Source of the DNA: Kribbibacterium absianum
GTDB lineage: Bacteria; Actinomycetota; Coriobacteriia; Coriobacteriales; Atopobiaceae
NCBI RefSeq assembly: GCF_030067705.1
Contig: NZ_JASJEX010000004.1
Coordinates: 124,001 to 188,000, forward strand
Direction: 5' to 3'
Length of the DNA stretch: 64,000 bases
Shown here: in pieces, positions 37,404 through 45,257 of the stretch
Position numbering within the stretch: position 1 is the stretch's first letter
How the letters are laid out: every line of letters begins with the position of its first letter
Notes under the pieces: model-generated
Told to the model about the DNA's origin: nothing
Seen by the model: only the letters and a program-made list of their open reading frames with translations
Database searches by the model: none
Translations under genes and position numbers: made by a program

Positions 37404-37919
37404 TCAGCCGTCGACGGCGTATTGGCAGCACTTGTACTGCGTGCACGTGGCGGTGGGGTCGTTGCCCGCGTACTGGCAGGCCTCCACCGAGTGCGTGCCG
37501 CTCTCCAGCTGACTGCCGGTGACCTGTAGCTCCGCCCGCACGTCCTCCACGGGGAACGCGCCTATCAGGCTCCCGTCGATGGACACGAACACCTCGCGCG
37601 ACGTCGCGAACCCGGAGAGGTACACGGTGAGCAGCTGCGGGTCGGTGGGCTCGATCACCGGAACCTTGCCGAGGCCGGTGGTCTGGTCGTCCTCGGTGCG
37701 GATCGTGAGGAGCTCGTCGTCGTCCGGCATGTAGCCGTAGTGCACGCGGCCCGACCCGTCGATGTCCCCGCCCGCACCTGCGGCGTCGCTTGCGGTCTGG
37801 TAGCCGGCGCTCAAATTGGAGGCGGACGCCGAGGCGGATGTGTCCTCTCCTGCGCAGCCCGCAAGCGCCAGCGCCAGCACGACGCAGAGCCCCGCCGTCC
37901 GTATCGTCTGCGCCCTCAT
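37404..37919 (-). CDS. Small lipoprotein with Cys-rich C-terminus, function unknown
   Basis: A 171-aa exported lipoprotein. The N-terminus is a lipoprotein signal peptide, MRAQTIRTAGLCVVLALALA, ending in the lipobox LAGC at Cys22. The mature part starts with a Ser/Ala-rich linker. A beta-rich middle follows (VYLSGFATSREVFVSIDGSL and VEDVRAELQVTGSQLESGTHSVE), somewhat like a PEGA-type repeat. The last 25 residues hold five Cys (ACQYAGN, TCTQYKCCQY). ATG start at 37919 with AAGGGGG upstream. No relation to known families recognised. A conserved disulfide or metal site at the end is possible. Confidence 0.6.
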   Translation of the reverse strand: MRAQTIRTAGLCVVLALALAGCAGEDTSASASASNLSAGYQTASDAAGAGGDIDGSGRVHYGYMPDDDELLTIRTEDDQTTGLGKVPVIEPTDPQLLTVYLSGFATSREVFVSIDGSLIGAFPVEDVRAELQVTGSQLESGTHSVEACQYAGNDPTATCTQYKCCQYAVDG

Positions 37920-38912: not shown

Positions 38913-39025
38913 TCAGAGCTCCTTTTTGTGCGGCGCCGCTTCGGCACAACGCGACGCATCATGAACCTCGACAGGATAGCACCACGGCCGAGAGGCGCGC
39001 GAGGCCCAACCGCCTGTCCTCGCAA

Positions 39026-39088
39026 ACCTCCCGAGGTGCCACGCATCCTGGGAGGTTTCCTCCTCAGGTGCGTGGCACCTCGGGAGGT
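39026..39088. repeat. 63-base palindromic element with 20-bp perfect arms
   Basis: The left arm ACCTCCCGAGGTGCCACGCA (39026-39045) and its exact reverse complement (39069-39088) enclose a 23-base loop. The loop has its own inverted repeat GGAGG/CCTCC (39051-39055, 39059-39063). It overlaps the last eight codons of the ECF S-component gene, whose stop is at 39064-39066. Confidence 0.9.
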
Positions 39089-39786
39089 CTGGGCTCGCGC
39101 AGGCCGTGCTGCACGAGGACGCGCTCGAGGGCGCGGCGCCACCGGCCCCAAAAGAGCTGGATGAACGCCACGGTCGCGACGGCGTGCGTCAGGTCCATCG
39201 GCGCTGAAGCGGCAAACGTCGTGAGCCCAGTGACCAGCGTGATCGGCCGCACGTAGCCCACGAGCGTGTAGGCGTCGAGCAACCAGCCGTACAGCCAACA
39301 GGCACAGAAGCCGTACAAGCCCGCGGCCGCGCGGCCCTCCAGGCACCGGCCAAGCAGCCCCGCCCCGTAGCCCATGAGCCCCCAGGCGTACATCTGCCAC
39401 GGCGTCCAGGGGCCCTGACCGAAGAACAGGTTGGACAGGAGCGCCGCCAGGGCGCCGCACAGAAACCCCGACTGCGGGCCGAGCAGCGACCCACAGAGGA
39501 TGACGATGGCGCTCACCGGCTTGACGTCGGGAACGGCGGCGAACGCGACGCGCCCCGCAGCAGCCGCGGAGCCGAGGGCCACCGTCGGCAGCAGCTGTCG
39601 CAGCGAGGGCGTGCGCCGCTCCCACCCCAATGCCATCACGAGCACCGCCGCGAGCACGACGGCCAGCGTGCCGAGCGCCCAAGAGCCCTGCACGAGCATT
39701 GCGACCACAAGCACGGCCGGCACCGCGACAAGCGCACCGGCCTCGACCCAGCGCCACGCGCCCCTCTGGCCGCCCCCATCCCCCAC
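39064..39786 (-). CDS. ECF transporter S component (likely cobalamin or vitamin-type)
   Basis: A 240-aa membrane protein with about six hydrophobic segments, of the S-component type of energy-coupling-factor transporters. Matching segments are AAAAGRVAFAAVPDVKPVSAI near residues 76-96, then GALAALLSNLFFGQGPWTPWQMYAWGLMG near 110-140; this pattern is found in the CbrT-like vitamin/cobalamin class. The nearest ATPase and T component lie 1.3 kb away on the same strand (41100-43345), beyond a plus-strand antiporter. Pairing with them is inference. The C-terminus (PPEVPRT) is encoded by the palindromic repeat. Confidence 0.72.
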   Translation of the reverse strand: MGDGGGQRGAWRWVEAGALVAVPAVLVVAMLVQGSWALGTLAVVLAAVLVMALGWERRTPSLRQLLPTVALGSAAAAGRVAFAAVPDVKPVSAIVILCGSLLGPQSGFLCGALAALLSNLFFGQGPWTPWQMYAWGLMGYGAGLLGRCLEGRAAAGLYGFCACWLYGWLLDAYTLVGYVRPITLVTGLTTFAASAPMDLTHAVATVAFIQLFWGRWRRALERVLVQHGLREPRPPEVPRT

Positions 39787-39860
39787 GGCGCTCCCCTCGA
39801 CGGTCCCGGCACCCGCCCGGACGGGTACATGAGCGAAAACCCCGCAACCAAGAAGGTCCC

Positions 39861-41057
39861 ATGGCTTCCACGCTCTTCTCGCTCGCCATTATCACCGCGA
39901 TCGGCTTCCTAGGCCCGTTCCTGACGTCGCTTCTGCCCGGCAAGTGGGTGCAATCGAGCGCGGTCGTGTTGCTCCTCGGTTGGCTGTGCGGGCCGCACAT
40001 GCTCGGGCTCATCGACCCGTCGGCCGAAGGGCTCGGCCTGTTGAAGCAGCTGGGGCTCGCGTTCCTCTTCCTCATGGGCGGCTACGAGCTGACGCCCGAC
40101 AAGGTGCTCGGCCCCTGCGGGCGGCACGCGATGCTGAGCTGGCTCGTCTCCTTTGGCCTCGGCCTCGCAGTGGTGCGGCTGCTGCCGCTGGGCTTCTCGT
40201 GGACGGCCTCCGTCGCGTGCGCGATAGCCCTCACGAGCACGTCGCTCAACAAGGTGGAGTCCCTGCTGCGCAGCCGCCACGAGCTAGCGACGCCGCTCGG
40301 GTCGGTCGTGACCAGCTATGGGGCGGCCGGTGAGCTGCTCCCGGTGGCCGCGGTCGCGTTGCTGATCGGCGAACACTCCGCCCTTGAGGAGGTGCTCGTG
40401 ATCCTCGCCTTCGTGGCCATCGCGGTGGCCGCGTCCTGGCTCGTGCGCCACGAGGACGGCCGGCGCACGCGCCTCTCGCGCTACGTACGGAGCGGCGACG
40501 ACCCGTCGCAGCTGATGACGCAGCTGGTGGTGGCCGTGCTCGTGGGCTTCACGGCCCTCGGCGCGATCCTTGGGGCGGACATGCTGGTCGCGGGTTTCGC
40601 GGCCGGCTGGGTGCTGCGGCGCCTCGTGCCCGAGGAAGACACCCGCACCATGGGGAAGCTCCGCGGGCTGGCCTACGGGTTCTTCATCCCGGTGACCTTC
40701 GTGCTCTCCGGCACGCGCATCGACATCGAGAGCGCGGCCAGCTACCTCTGGGTGGTCGCGGCGTTCATCGGCCTGCTGCTGGTGGTGCGCGGCGTGCCGG
40801 TGCTGCTGGCCCTGCGGGCGTTCCCCGAGACGCGCGGGCTCGACCGCCTGCAGAAGTGGGACGTGTGCGCCTACAGCTGCATGGCGATGGCGACGGTCGT
40901 GGCGATGACGAACGTGGCCGTGGAGGCCGGCGACATGACGCCGGCCATCGCGGGCGCGCTCGTGTTCGCGGCCGCGCTGACCACGCTGATCGTGCCGGCC
41001 GTGACCTACGGGCTGGAGCGCCGGGAGGCGCGGACGGGCGCCAGGACCGACCGATAA
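39861..41057 (+). CDS. Cation/proton antiporter, CPA2-like (Na+/H+ exchanger domain)
   Basis: A 398-aa membrane protein with about 11-12 hydrophobic segments. Features: LGWLCGPHMLGLIDPS near residues 38-53, GLAFLFLMGGYELTPDKV near 68-85 (the F-x-x-G-x-E/D pattern of CPA2 exchangers), and CAIALTSTSLNKV near 119. Then come LGADMLVAGFAAGWVLRRLVPEE near 240 and the helix YGFFIPVTFVLSGTRID near 273, the P-V-F-F type stretch. No C-terminal RCK/TrkA domain. The ATG at 39861 has AGAAGG five bases upstream. Sits on the plus strand between the S component and the ATPase genes of an ECF region; function in Na+, K+ or pH balance unassigned. Confidence 0.85.
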   Translation: MASTLFSLAIITAIGFLGPFLTSLLPGKWVQSSAVVLLLGWLCGPHMLGLIDPSAEGLGLLKQLGLAFLFLMGGYELTPDKVLGPCGRHAMLSWLVSFGLGLAVVRLLPLGFSWTASVACAIALTSTSLNKVESLLRSRHELATPLGSVVTSYGAAGELLPVAAVALLIGEHSALEEVLVILAFVAIAVAASWLVRHEDGRRTRLSRYVRSGDDPSQLMTQLVVAVLVGFTALGAILGADMLVAGFAAGWVLRRLVPEEDTRTMGKLRGLAYGFFIPVTFVLSGTRIDIESAASYLWVVAAFIGLLLVVRGVPVLLALRAFPETRGLDRLQKWDVCAYSCMAMATVVAMTNVAVEAGDMTPAIAGALVFAAALTTLIVPAVTYGLERREARTGARTDR

Positions 41058-41069
41058 ACCTGCAAAAGT

Positions 41070-41098
41070 GTGCAAAAAGGGACTGTCCTTAACTGCAC
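41070..41098. repeat. Dispersed palindromic repeat, copy 2
   Basis: Left arm GTGCAAAAAGGGA and right arm TCCTTAACTGCAC, inverted repeats with mismatches. Lies between converging genes, next to the stop codon of the double-ATPase gene at 41100. Same family as 15021-15049 and 55380-55414. Confidence 0.8.
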
Positions 41099-41099
41099 A

Positions 41100-42497
41100 T
41101 CACGGACGGTAGAAGAACGCGTCCGAGAAGAACCCCTCGGCCGGCTGTGTGGCCGCGACCGAACCGTCGAACACCATCGACACGGTGTGGCAGGCGTCGC
41201 GCGCGAACCCGAGGTCGTGGGTGGCGAGGAGCACCGCCGTGCCCTGCTCGGCCAGCCCCTGCACGAGCCGCGCCGCCACCTCGCGGCCCGGCTGGTCCAA
41301 CGAGCGGGTGGGCTCGTCACAGAACAGCACGCGCGGGCGCGCCCCCGCCACCTTTGCCAGTGCCAGCAGCTGTCGCTGGCCGCCCGACAGGTCGAGCGGG
41401 TTCTGGTCGAGCGTGCCCGAGAGACCGGCCTCAGCCGCCAAGGCCTCGGCGTCGGGTCCCAGCTCGGCGCGCACCGTCTCCTCGCGGAGCAGCTCGCGCG
41501 GGTCTTGTGGCATGTAGCACTGACGGTCCCCGAGCGGTCTCGTCACGCGCCCGCGCTCGGGTCTGAGAATCCCGGCAGCAGCCTTGAGCAGCGTGGACTT
41601 CCCTGCCCCGTTGCCGCCCACAACGGCTCGGACCTCTCCTTGGGACAGCGCAAGCGACAGACCCCGGAGCACCCACGGGCGCTCCGGCGAGCGTCCGCGC
41701 CAGCCGCCGGCGATGCCTTGCGCGGGATAGCGCACCCACGCACCCGAGAAGCCCAGCGCGAGCCCGTCTCGGGGAGCGCGCAACGGCCGGGGCACGGCCC
41801 CCTGCTCGCGCGGCAGCTCGCCGAGAGCGACCTGCCGCACCTGTCCCTCCTCGACGACGAGCGCCTCGGTCGCGTAGTCCACAGCGGGCCCCGGCCGATG
41901 TGTCGCCATGACCACCGTGACGCCCAGCTCGCGATTGAGCCGGAAGAGCCCATGCAGAAAGCGCTGCTCCGCGACGGGGTCCAGCAGCGCCGTGGGCTCG
42001 TCCAGCAACAGCAGCCCAGGGGCCGCCACCATCGCTGCCGCCAGCGCCACCAGCTGCGCCTGGCCGCCCGACAGGGTCGCGGTGTCGCGCCCCATCCATC
42101 CGTCGATACCAAAGAAGTACGCGCACTCGGCCACGCGCCGGCGCGTCTCCTCCGGCTCCACGCCCAGGTTCTCCAAGCAGAAAGCCAGCTCGTGGTACAC
42201 GTCGCTCGAGACCAGCGAGGCGTCCGGGTCCTGGAGCACGAGCCCTGCAGCCCGTGCGGACTCGGCGACGCCCAGCTCGTGCACGTCACGGCCGCCGAGA
42301 AGCACGGAGCCGTCCCGCTCGCCTGCCGGCGACACCTCGGGCTTCGCCAGCCGCAACAGCGTGGACTTGCCCGAGCCCGTCGGCCCACAGAGCAGCGCGA
42401 ACGCGCCCTGCCCAACGGCGAAGGAAGCATGGCGAACCACCGGGCGCGTCGAGCCCGCGTAGGTGAACGACACGTCCCGGAACGTCAGCGCCGCCAC
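41100..42497 (-). CDS. ECF transporter ATPase with two fused ABC domains
   Basis: A 465-aa protein with two complete ABC ATPase domains. First domain: Walker A CGPTGSGKS at residues 37-45, Q-loop LVLQDPD, signature LSGGQAQLVALAAA and Walker B GLLLLDEPTALLDP, near residues 135-170. Second domain (about 260-465): Walker A GGNGAGKST, signature LSGGQRQLLALAKV and Walker B VLFCDEPTRSLD, with H-loop ATHDL. A duplicated energy unit of this kind is the U-type component of group-I ECF systems (CbrU/MtsU-like). The GTG at 42497 has GAGGAGG five bases upstream; the reading frame overlaps the EcfT gene by 13 bases. Confidence 0.93.
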   Translation of the reverse strand: MAALTFRDVSFTYAGSTRPVVRHASFAVGQGAFALLCGPTGSGKSTLLRLAKPEVSPAGERDGSVLLGGRDVHELGVAESARAAGLVLQDPDASLVSSDVYHELAFCLENLGVEPEETRRRVAECAYFFGIDGWMGRDTATLSGGQAQLVALAAAMVAAPGLLLLDEPTALLDPVAEQRFLHGLFRLNRELGVTVVMATHRPGPAVDYATEALVVEEGQVRQVALGELPREQGAVPRPLRAPRDGLALGFSGAWVRYPAQGIAGGWRGRSPERPWVLRGLSLALSQGEVRAVVGGNGAGKSTLLKAAAGILRPERGRVTRPLGDRQCYMPQDPRELLREETVRAELGPDAEALAAEAGLSGTLDQNPLDLSGGQRQLLALAKVAGARPRVLFCDEPTRSLDQPGREVAARLVQGLAEQGTAVLLATHDLGFARDACHTVSMVFDGSVAATQPAEGFFSDAFFYRP

Positions 42498-43345
42498 AGG
42501 GCCCTCCTCTCGCGCACCGCGCCCCACAGGCCGTCGAGAACCGGCACAAGACAGAACGCTCCGACAAGGGCGTAGCCCCAGCTCCATGTCAGCGGTGGCA
42601 TCGCGGGATAGAACGTCCAGCCCGCGCTCATCGTCAGCGCCGCGACCGTGGCCGCGATACCGAGCGCCAGCACGAGCCCCAGCTCGGCGCGGTCCTCTCC
42701 CGACGCCGCCCTCGGCGCAGCGGTCACCCGGCGCCCGGCGCCCCATCCGCGCGCCCTCATCGAGTCCGCCTGCACCAGGGAGTCGTCGAGCGACCACGCC
42801 ATGAGGCGCGTGGACAGTGCGCCCACCGAGGGTGCGCTCGCGTTGCCGAACGCGGTGTTGGCCTTGTCGGTCGCGCTCATCGACTGCAGGCGCGATGACA
42901 TCTGCGGCACCAAACGCAGCCCCAGCGAAAGGATCAGAGCGCACACGGGCATCCGGCGCCCCAGCAGGTCGCGGAGCTCGGACGCCCCCACTGCCGCCGA
43001 GAAGCCGAGAGACAGGAGCACCATCGCCGCGAGCATCCCGGCCATGACCAGCCCATACACGGCCGCCTCCAGGTACACGCCCTGATGACCGATCCGGAAC
43101 AGCTCGGTGGAACCGCTCGACTGCAACAACGGGTTCAGAACCGCGACCAGCACCGCCAGCGGGGCCAGCCACCGCACGGTCTTCCCCACCGATGTCCAAC
43201 CGCACTCGCCCACCGCGAACGCGCCGCACCCCATAAGGCCGATGGCCACGACCGCCGGCTGGTTGCACCCCGCCACGATCACGGCCATCAGCCCGCACCA
43301 CACTGCCGACACCGCCGGCTTGCTTGTCTCGAAGGGGCGCGACAC
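42485..43345 (-). CDS. ECF transporter transmembrane component EcfT
   Basis: A 286-aa membrane protein with about five to six hydrophobic segments. It has the T-component coupling motif near residue 205: SMRARGWGAGRR contains the Ala-Arg-Gly pattern (canonical A-R-G, here MRARGWG). An earlier SLGLRLVPQMSSRLQSM also fits EcfT cytoplasmic helices. It couples the ATPases to an S component. The GTG at 43345 starts one base after the DUF4430 stop; the fused ATPase follows with a 13-base overlap, so the order DUF4430-EcfT-ATPase is one transcript. Confidence 0.9.
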   Translation of the reverse strand: MSRPFETSKPAVSAVWCGLMAVIVAGCNQPAVVAIGLMGCGAFAVGECGWTSVGKTVRWLAPLAVLVAVLNPLLQSSGSTELFRIGHQGVYLEAAVYGLVMAGMLAAMVLLSLGFSAAVGASELRDLLGRRMPVCALILSLGLRLVPQMSSRLQSMSATDKANTAFGNASAPSVGALSTRLMAWSLDDSLVQADSMRARGWGAGRRVTAAPRAASGEDRAELGLVLALGIAATVAALTMSAGWTFYPAMPPLTWSWGYALVGAFCLVPVLDGLWGAVRERRALWRR

Positions 43346-43346
43346 C

Positions 43347-43814
43347 TTAGCTGGTGTACTCGACGTACGTCCACACGACCGCATCGCCGTCGGCCACCTT
43401 GTAGTCGCCGGAGCCCACGTCGGGCTGCTTGCCGTTGACCGTGTAGGTCCAGCCGTGCCCGGAGTCAGCCGCCGTGCCGTCGATCGAGGTCACGTACTCG
43501 CCGTAGGAGCTGTCCTCGGTCTTGTACGCGATGTTGCTGGCCTTGAGGACGTCGAGCACGGTGCCGTCCTTGGCAACGGTGACCTGCTCGGGAGCCTCGT
43601 CAGCGCCAATCTGCTGCGTCACGGTGACCTGGTCGGCCGTGGGCGAGTCGCTCGTCGCGGCGCCCGTTGTCTCCGTGGTCGCGGCCTTGTCCGCACTGCC
43701 GTTGGCACCGCAGCCGGTGAGAGCCACCGGTGTCGCGATGCAGAGCACCGCGACCAAAAGCGCGGCGAGGGCCTGAGAGCAACGCGCCGTCCACGCGTCC
43801 TTGCGCTCGTTCAT
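43347..43814 (-). CDS. DUF4430 transcobalamin-like lipoprotein
   Basis: A 155-aa lipoprotein: signal peptide of about 35 residues ending in the lipobox LTGC. A Thr/Ser/Ala-rich linker follows, then about 85 residues of the DUF4430 domain, which is homologous to the C-terminal domain of transcobalamin and intrinsic factor. Seen here are DGTVLDVLKASNI, YVTSIDGTAADSGHGWTYTVNGKQPDVGSG-type strands and DAVVWTYVEY at the end. The cobalamin riboswitch directly upstream (43841-44042) and the downstream EcfT/ATPase support a role in cobalamin or corrinoid capture. ATG start at 43814 with AAAGGGG upstream. Confidence 0.85.
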   Translation of the reverse strand: MNERKDAWTARCSQALAALLVAVLCIATPVALTGCGANGSADKAATTETTGAATSDSPTADQVTVTQQIGADEAPEQVTVAKDGTVLDVLKASNIAYKTEDSSYGEYVTSIDGTAADSGHGWTYTVNGKQPDVGSGDYKVADGDAVVWTYVEYTS

Positions 43815-43840
43815 GGGTTCCCCTTTCTGTAGGAACTCGC

Positions 43841-44042
43841 GAGAGAGGGCACGTCTCCTGGCTCGCGGGCGGCGGGGCAAAGACCCTGCCGGACGGGGAC
43901 CCTTCTCAGACCGTCGACCCCTCGGCCGCCGACCCAATGGGAACGCACCCCGTCCTTGACCCGCACACAGTAGTGGCGGCTGTCCCGGATTCGCACCGGG
44001 TTCCGTTTTGACCACCGGCGCGCGGCCGGCGGACCCTCTCTC
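43841..44042 (-). ncRNA. Cobalamin riboswitch
   Basis: Minus strand. P1 arms GAGAGAGGG (44034-44042) and CCCTCTCTC (43841-43849) close a roughly 200-base structure. Conserved core parts are seen: GGAACCCGGTGCGAATCCGG, then GACAGCCGCCACTACTGT, and near the 3' end GAGCCAGGAGACGTGCC (canonical GAGACCTGCC, here GAGACGTGCC). It ends 26 bases before the DUF4430 gene and would repress this operon when adenosylcobalamin is abundant. Confidence 0.93.
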
Positions 44043-44063
44043 GCCTCACTAGATGCACGCATG

Positions 44064-44269: not shown

Positions 44270-45202
44270 CTAGCTGCGCCTGTCGGCGTCGTCCTTTTCG
44301 GAGTCCTCCAGCCGCTCATCGCGCGGCACCGCGCCCTTCTCCACCAGGTCGTCGGTGTCCACGGGCACGTCCGAGCCCGTCGCCGTCACATAGAGCCGGC
44401 CCACCTGCGGACGTTGCGTCTTGTGCGCCCAGACCAGGAAACCGATACCCACGAACACGAGCGGCACCGAGAGGATCTGCCCCATCGTGATGAACCCGTC
44501 GATGAGGTAGCCGAGCTGGACGTCGGGCACGCGCACGAACTCGATGAGGATGCGGAAGCAGCCGTACATGATGAGGAACCACCCCGTGAAGGTTCCCTGC
44601 GGGCGCGGCGGGCGCTTGCGCGACAGCAGCCACAGCACGACGAACATCACGAGACCCTCGAGGAGCGCCTCGTAGAGCTGGGAGGGATGGCGCGCCACGG
44701 GGCCCCCGCTCTCGAAGACCACGCCCCACGGCAGGTCGGTGGGCTTGCCCCACAGCTCGCCGTTGACGAAGTTCGCGAGACGCCCCAGGCCGAGGCCGAC
44801 CGGCGTCACGATGCACCCCATGTCGAGGAACGTCAGGATCGAGAGCCTGAGCATCTTGCAGGCGATGGAGCCGCCCACGATGGCGCCGATAAGGCCGCCG
44901 TGGAAGCTCATGCCGCCCTCGCTGAAGGCGAGGATCTCGAGCGGATGGCTCCAGTAGTAGCCGGTGCCGTAGAAGAGTACGTAGCCGAGTCGCCCGCCAA
45001 AGATGGCGCCGAAGGCGATGCCGATGACCACGGACATGATGTCGTCGGGGGTCATGTCGAGCTTCCAGCGCTTCACAAGGCGCCAGACCAGGATGCCGCC
45101 GATGACGAACGCGGCGAGGTACGCGAGGCCGTACCAGCGCACGGAGAGCGGCCCCACGGAGAAGGCGACGGGATCGAGCGAATGGTAGAGGTCGTTGAGC
45201 AA
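44270..45202 (-). CDS. lgt: Prolipoprotein diacylglyceryl transferase
   Basis: Transfers diacylglycerol to the lipobox Cys of prelipoproteins at the membrane. The 310-aa product has seven hydrophobic segments and the family signature GRLANFVNGELWGKPTDLPWGVVF near residues 145-168, with the catalytic-region GGMSFHGGLIGAIVGG near 96-111 and RHPSQLYEALLEG near 178. The acidic C-terminal 50 residues are extra. A TTG at 45202 has AAAGGA six bases upstream; the GTG at 45232 lacks a ribosome site. Consistent with the two lipoproteins encoded in this window. Confidence 0.94.
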   Translation of the reverse strand: MLNDLYHSLDPVAFSVGPLSVRWYGLAYLAAFVIGGILVWRLVKRWKLDMTPDDIMSVVIGIAFGAIFGGRLGYVLFYGTGYYWSHPLEILAFSEGGMSFHGGLIGAIVGGSIACKMLRLSILTFLDMGCIVTPVGLGLGRLANFVNGELWGKPTDLPWGVVFESGGPVARHPSQLYEALLEGLVMFVVLWLLSRKRPPRPQGTFTGWFLIMYGCFRILIEFVRVPDVQLGYLIDGFITMGQILSVPLVFVGIGFLVWAHKTQRPQVGRLYVTATGSDVPVDTDDLVEKGAVPRDERLEDSEKDDADRRS

Positions 45203-45257
45203 GGGAAGTCCTTTGGGTCGGCCGAAGGTCACCTAACGGTAGCAGAGGCCGCCGGGA

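Follow-up and report, generated by a model that had tools for sequence, protein, structure and literature searches.

The window analysed here, a 64,000 nt stretch of the Kribbibacterium absianum genome (2.18 Mb; assembly GCF_030067705.1, contig NZ_JASJEX010000004.1, positions 124,001–188,000 of the forward strand), contains a locus that very probably encodes a dedicated ECF-type uptake system for corrinoids (vitamin B12) with an extracellular accessory lipoprotein. On the minus strand, a cobalamin riboswitch is followed by genes for a DUF4430 lipoprotein, an EcfT protein and a fused double ATPase. An antiporter gene on the plus strand comes next, and then, again on the minus strand, the gene of the S component. 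The features of the locus are:

43831–44053, minus strand: cobalamin riboswitch aptamer (RF00174), leader of the lipoprotein gene, ending 16 bases 5' of the ATG
43347–43814, minus strand: DUF4430 (transcobalamin-like SLBB) lipoprotein, 155 aa, PF14478, lipobox LTGC
42485 to ~43384, minus strand: EcfT-type transmembrane protein, kept between the DUF4430 and ATPase genes in relatives
41100–42497, minus strand: fused double ECF ATPase (EcfA-EcfA'), GTG start, 13-base overlap with ecfT
39861–41057, plus strand: Na+/H+ (CPA2-type) antiporter (PF00999, 2.6e-31), between the ATPase and S genes
39064–39786, minus strand: CbrT-type S component, GTG start, PF07155 (3.3e-9)

The riboswitch and the DUF4430 lipoprotein

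A preliminary description of this DNA had named a cobalamin riboswitch ahead of a DUF4430 lipoprotein gene, and both assignments were borne out. The Rfam covariance model RF00174 matched over its entire length (model positions 1–189 of 189) with 86.9 bits against a cut-off of 31.5 (E 4.7e-20), and the aptamer reaches position 44053, beyond the end of the stretch described earlier (44042). This is the sole RF00174 match in the K. absianum genome. We assign the element a putative role in corrinoid binding and expression control, and infer B12 control of at least the lipoprotein. Translational control via a hairpin over the ribosome-binding site was considered. Such a hairpin is possible by prediction but no better than those of shuffled sequences (z -0.96), and a translational mechanism is therefore not claimed. 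A sigma-70 promoter scan of the region gave no match, which carries little weight since the genome is G+C-rich.

The lipoprotein matches PF14478 with an E value of 1.9e-19 (70.3 bits; cut-off 23.8), and is the sole DUF4430 protein of the K. absianum genome. Its signal peptide comprises a hydrophobic segment at residues 15–33 and the LTGC lipobox, with the cysteine at residue 35; by motif only, the protein is predicted to be secreted and surface-anchored. The DUF4430 family profile matches 3u7z, transcobalamin-1 and intrinsic factor. The predicted model of the lipoprotein, confident over residues 61–155, resembles haptocorrin most closely (Z 16.1, rmsd 1.5 over 95 residues), followed by the apo transcobalamin beta domain (Z 15.0) and by 5np4, a structure of the transcobalamin beta domain on its own with cyanocobalamin (Z 14.8). 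Comparisons with transcobalamin and intrinsic factor gave Z 14–15, and the nearest other fold Z 8.7. The kinship of DUF4430 with the C-terminal domain of transcobalamin, put forward in the preliminary description, thus holds at the level of the predicted fold. Judged by profile and model, the lipoprotein consists of a transcobalamin/intrinsic-factor beta-type domain that stands alone and carries a lipidation signal.

Two fragments of intrinsic factor, separated from one another, reportedly keep tight cyanocobalamin binding (PMC6257451), and together with the 5np4 complex this makes binding by a beta domain on its own possible in principle. Against capture, the lipoprotein lacks the alpha/alpha toroid that makes half of the animal binding site, K. 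absianum is without the large toroid or propeller partner encoded upstream in relatives, and 3u7z, a solved stand-alone relative, is annotated as a putative metal-binding protein.

Two other genes in the window touch on lipoproteins. The gene for Lgt, the lipoprotein-lipidating enzyme, lies just upstream on the same strand (44270–45232), probably by coincidence. A lipoprotein-like gene at 37404–37919 (171 residues, lipobox LAGC) had no match in Pfam and NCBIfam searches.

The ECF module and the S component

The EcfT sequence alone had no match in Pfam. It contains six hydrophobic segments, and a profile of 19 sequences (that of the window and 18 relatives) picks up EcfT chains of known structure (2e-10). 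Where its translation starts is uncertain, since the longest open frame runs 38 bases into the lipoprotein gene. The ATPase carries two complete sets of catalytic motifs, each with Walker A, LSGGQ and DEPT, and its best NCBIfam match is ECF_ATPase_1 (2.4e-71), a score under the curated cut-off of that model. An S-family profile of 25 sequences, searched against solved structures, selects CbrT (6FNP, 1.5e-25); the second-best S component is 4hzu_S, at 0.096. By this comparison CbrT is the nearest match of the S component among those of known structure, and we regard the window's S component as a putative transporter of cobalamin and cobinamide. Its neighbours are the antiporter and yebC, unlike the nrdJ-cbrS-cbrT-pduO context in Lactobacillus delbrueckii, which is no requirement of the family. 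As read from these protein families, the locus provides the S component with an ECF module of its own: EcfT and both ATPase domains are encoded nearby, with the antiporter gene between.

A REP-like dispersed palindrome, a 33-base inverted repeat that is 85% complementary, lies at 39023–39091, from the S gene end to yebC. Its core, CCTCCCGAGGTGCCACGCA, has 28 copies in the genome (at most 2 mismatches), often in close pairs, compared with 0 for the reversed control.

The overlapping EcfT and ATPase frames, and an S component about 1.3 kb further on past an opposed antiporter, had likewise been noted beforehand; the distance from S start to ATPase stop is 1313 bases. The description of the module as split needs to be qualified. 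Separation of the S gene by the antiporter is common to the three nearest relatives examined (G159, G004 and G038; S components 55–58% identical), all of which have the order EcfT-ATPase-antiporter-S-yebC, and is absent in most other relatives. We had considered the antiporter a recent insertion in the K. absianum strain, an idea dropped in view of the same order in three relatives; it is thus an old neighbour, and probably no part of the transporter. Because the S gene is not part of the transcript led by the riboswitch, it may be expressed independently of B12.

The riboswitch-DUF4430 unit sits elsewhere in the genome in these three relatives. In G159, riboswitch and DUF4430 gene stand alone, with EcfT-ATPase-S at another place. 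In these genomes the riboswitch accompanies the DUF4430 gene rather than the transporter genes, which gives good grounds for assigning the DUF4430 protein itself to B12 metabolism.

Conservation in relatives and B12 in the host

The preliminary description had proposed a search for linkage of DUF4430 lipoproteins with ECF genes and cobalamin riboswitches, and this linkage was found: the order DUF4430-EcfT-EcfAA-S recurs in Coriobacteriia, Clostridia and Bacilli, and a cobalamin riboswitch often precedes it. DUF4430 is present in 227 of 297 genomes of the order Coriobacteriales. Within the family Atopobiaceae, a cobalamin riboswitch was detected in 20 of 101 genomes, one in each, and DUF4430 lies downstream within ~8 kb in 13 of these 20 (chance P ~4e-23); several of the remaining family riboswitches lead BtuF-type or corrin-synthesis genes. 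No riboswitch was detected in the other 81 family genomes, many of which keep the cassette, and stricter filters may miss weak ones.

Genome contigs gave no match when scanned with the lipoprotein by itself. The S alignment returned 587 loci, the best 80 of which came from Coriobacteriia, Clostridia and Bacilli. For the 67 of these 80 with enough flank, the ATPase is encoded upstream of S in 67/67, EcfT in 65/67 and DUF4430 in 59/67. The order DUF4430-EcfT-ATPase-S is identical among these loci, with S mostly directly after the ATPase and in the same orientation. When 18 of the loci were checked with Rfam, 14 had a riboswitch upstream; this should not be read as a frequency because many of the 18 were chosen via motif-scan pointers. 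The first regular expression of that motif scan was too loose (43 matches in shuffled sequence); the tightened version gave 0 matches in 3.3 Mb of shuffles and recovered 17 of 19 known riboswitches, and the Rfam check of the 18 loci followed. A Desulfosporosinus locus (L171:982–1547) has two tandem cobalamin riboswitches before the same kind of operon. In Enterococcus raffinosus the DUF4430 and S genes overlap, and no EcfT or ATPase is annotated within 7 kb.

The small DUF4430 gene is preceded in many relatives by the gene of a large surface protein that also has DUF4430 domains. The large partner of Coriobacteriales combines DUF4430 with a beta-propeller, and that of Bacilli and Clostridia pairs it with an alpha/alpha toroid, which completes the transcobalamin architecture. 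Anchors of the large partner are LPXTG, S-layer or wall-binding. Examples, by locus, are:

L104:3412–9987, L103:3262–5535, L088:10241–13069, L066:9927–12116, L083:3833–8446, L055:5423–8197: beta-propeller surface proteins encoded directly upstream of the small DUF4430 gene
L168:2577–4625, L180:2–4114, L150:2–4291: toroid-DUF4430 proteins with a wall or S-layer anchor, from Oceanobacillus, Bacillus and Desulfosporosinus

All six propeller proteins end in a membrane anchor, most lie behind a riboswitch, and Pfam recognizes DUF4430 in all but L066. The K. absianum genome contains no second DUF4430 protein, and a search of it for a large propeller protein, run without a positive control, was empty.

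The methionine synthase MetH (810 residues, with homocysteine, pterin and B12 domains) is the only protein with a B12-binding domain found in the genome. One reductase matches the NrdJ model far under the cut-off, and a class II reductase is therefore not claimed. CobS had no match in the K. absianum genome in a search that was positive in most control genomes, and the host is apparently unable to make B12. BtuF-type proteins (Peripla_BP_2, PF01497) were also absent from the genome, in a search that gave matches in 13 of 14 control genomes. With CobS and BtuF-type proteins covered by these searches, the ECF system is left as the one source of corrinoids that was found.

Proposed uptake route, alternatives and known systems

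We propose that low cellular cobalamin would lead the riboswitch to permit synthesis of the lipoprotein and, by read-through, also of EcfT and the ATPase. The lipoprotein, tethered at the outer face of the membrane, would catch or hold corrinoid near the membrane and pass it to the S component, which would then topple and release the corrinoid inside as EcfT and the ATPases turn over. The imported cofactor would feed MetH. A stronger version, which we hold to be rather unlikely, makes the lipoprotein an obligate subunit, with cobalamin held between the tethered beta domain and the CbrT-type S component, the latter replacing the missing toroid. If true, this would be an ECF transporter with a genuine extracellular hand-over protein.

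The role of the lipoprotein could also be a different one. The ECF transporter may import corrinoids with the lipoprotein serving as an assembly or docking partner, for example for a large SLBB protein, so that it would be a relic here and no capturer of substrate. The small DUF4430 protein does often accompany the large surface protein in relatives, surface complexes of paralogous SLBB proteins have been suggested by Burroughs et al. (PMC1796856), and the large protein was not found in the K. absianum genome by the propeller search, which had no positive control. We nevertheless find this account doubtful: the small protein keeps its lipobox, fold and riboswitch here despite the absent partner, riboswitch and small protein stay together in G159 where the ECF genes are not adjacent, and the isolated beta domain of transcobalamin has been solved with its ligand in place (5np4).

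Were the substrate instead cobalt or a different vitamin, riboflavin for instance, the riboswitch would have to act via cobalt that feeds B12 synthesis, or the S component would have to belong to another vitamin family. The Pfam name of the S match is riboflavin-type, the ATPase also matches the CbiO cobalt subfamily model, and 3u7z is titled a putative metal-binding protein. Set against the selection of CbrT and no other S component at a significant E value by the S profile, the relationship of DUF4430 to transcobalamin, and the failure to find CobS in the genome, which leaves cobalt without an evident B12 pathway to supply, this possibility appears very unlikely. It is more improbable still that the S component belongs to a different system from the riboswitch-led genes and merely neighbours them. 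Such a reading would explain the divergent antiporter between them and the position of S outside the riboswitch-led transcript, but in most relatives S directly follows the ATPase in the same orientation, and the order EcfT-ATPase-antiporter-S-yebC is kept in G159, G004 and G038.

A dedicated corrinoid uptake system with an accessory lipoprotein would connect a predicted bacterial transcobalamin-like class with cobalamin riboswitches and with an S component of proven B12 transport, in both Actinomycetota and Bacillota. In the usual account of ECF transporters only the S component binds substrate, a picture that would change if the lipoprotein works as proposed. With one small lipoprotein and one ECF module, the minimal version in K. 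absianum suits testing of a hand-over from extracellular binder to S component. The system also bears on competition for B12 among bacteria unable to make it.

The preliminary description had presented the lipoprotein-assisted ECF route as non-standard; as a new route it is not supported. Burroughs et al. (Biol Direct 2007, 2:4; PMC1796856) described a transcobalamin-like SLBB clade of Gram-positive bacteria with secreted domains, in operons with CbiO/CbiQ-like genes and in hosts lacking B12 synthesis, and proposed B12 scavenging; they also described fusions to toroid and beta-propeller, as well as operons that hold two paralogous SLBB genes. The scavenging idea was thus already predicted in 2007. 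A proteomics paper of 2023 gives 'Additional lipoprotein component of putative cobalamin ECF transporter' as the annotation of a DUF4430 protein of L. rhamnosus, whose gene adjoins rtpR, named in that paper as a neighbour (PMC9963975). Experimental tests of a bacterial DUF4430 protein were not found in the literature searched, which lay mostly outside subscription journals. Our analysis adds the identification of the S component as CbrT-type, its association with the riboswitch, operon counts across phyla, the minimal partner-free version and the shared split.

Like the SLBB set of Burroughs et al., the K. absianum locus combines a secreted beta-grasp domain and a CbiO/CbiQ-like operon in a host without evident B12 synthesis. 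It differs in that an S component and a riboswitch are identified, neither being named in the accessible text of that paper, which predates CbrT, and in having the small stand-alone lipoprotein only (PMC1796856). The S component is of the same family as that of ECF-CbrT of L. delbrueckii (6FNP), for which transport of cobalamin and cobinamide has been demonstrated (PMC5997447). In L. delbrueckii, one ECF module serves eight predicted S components and CbrT is encoded in nrdJ-cbrS-cbrT-pduO (PMC5997447), whereas the S component of the window has its own EcfT and fused ATPase nearby, together with a DUF4430 lipoprotein. The lipoprotein shares the predicted fold of the C-terminal beta domain with animal transcobalamin, haptocorrin and intrinsic factor (Z 14–16); unlike these soluble carriers, it is a predicted membrane lipoprotein and has no alpha/alpha toroid. 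In outline, the proposed route may be likened to that of the Bacteroides surface lipoproteins that capture B12 for a transporter, although, on the accessible text of that report, organism, envelope and transporter are all different (PMC6143338).
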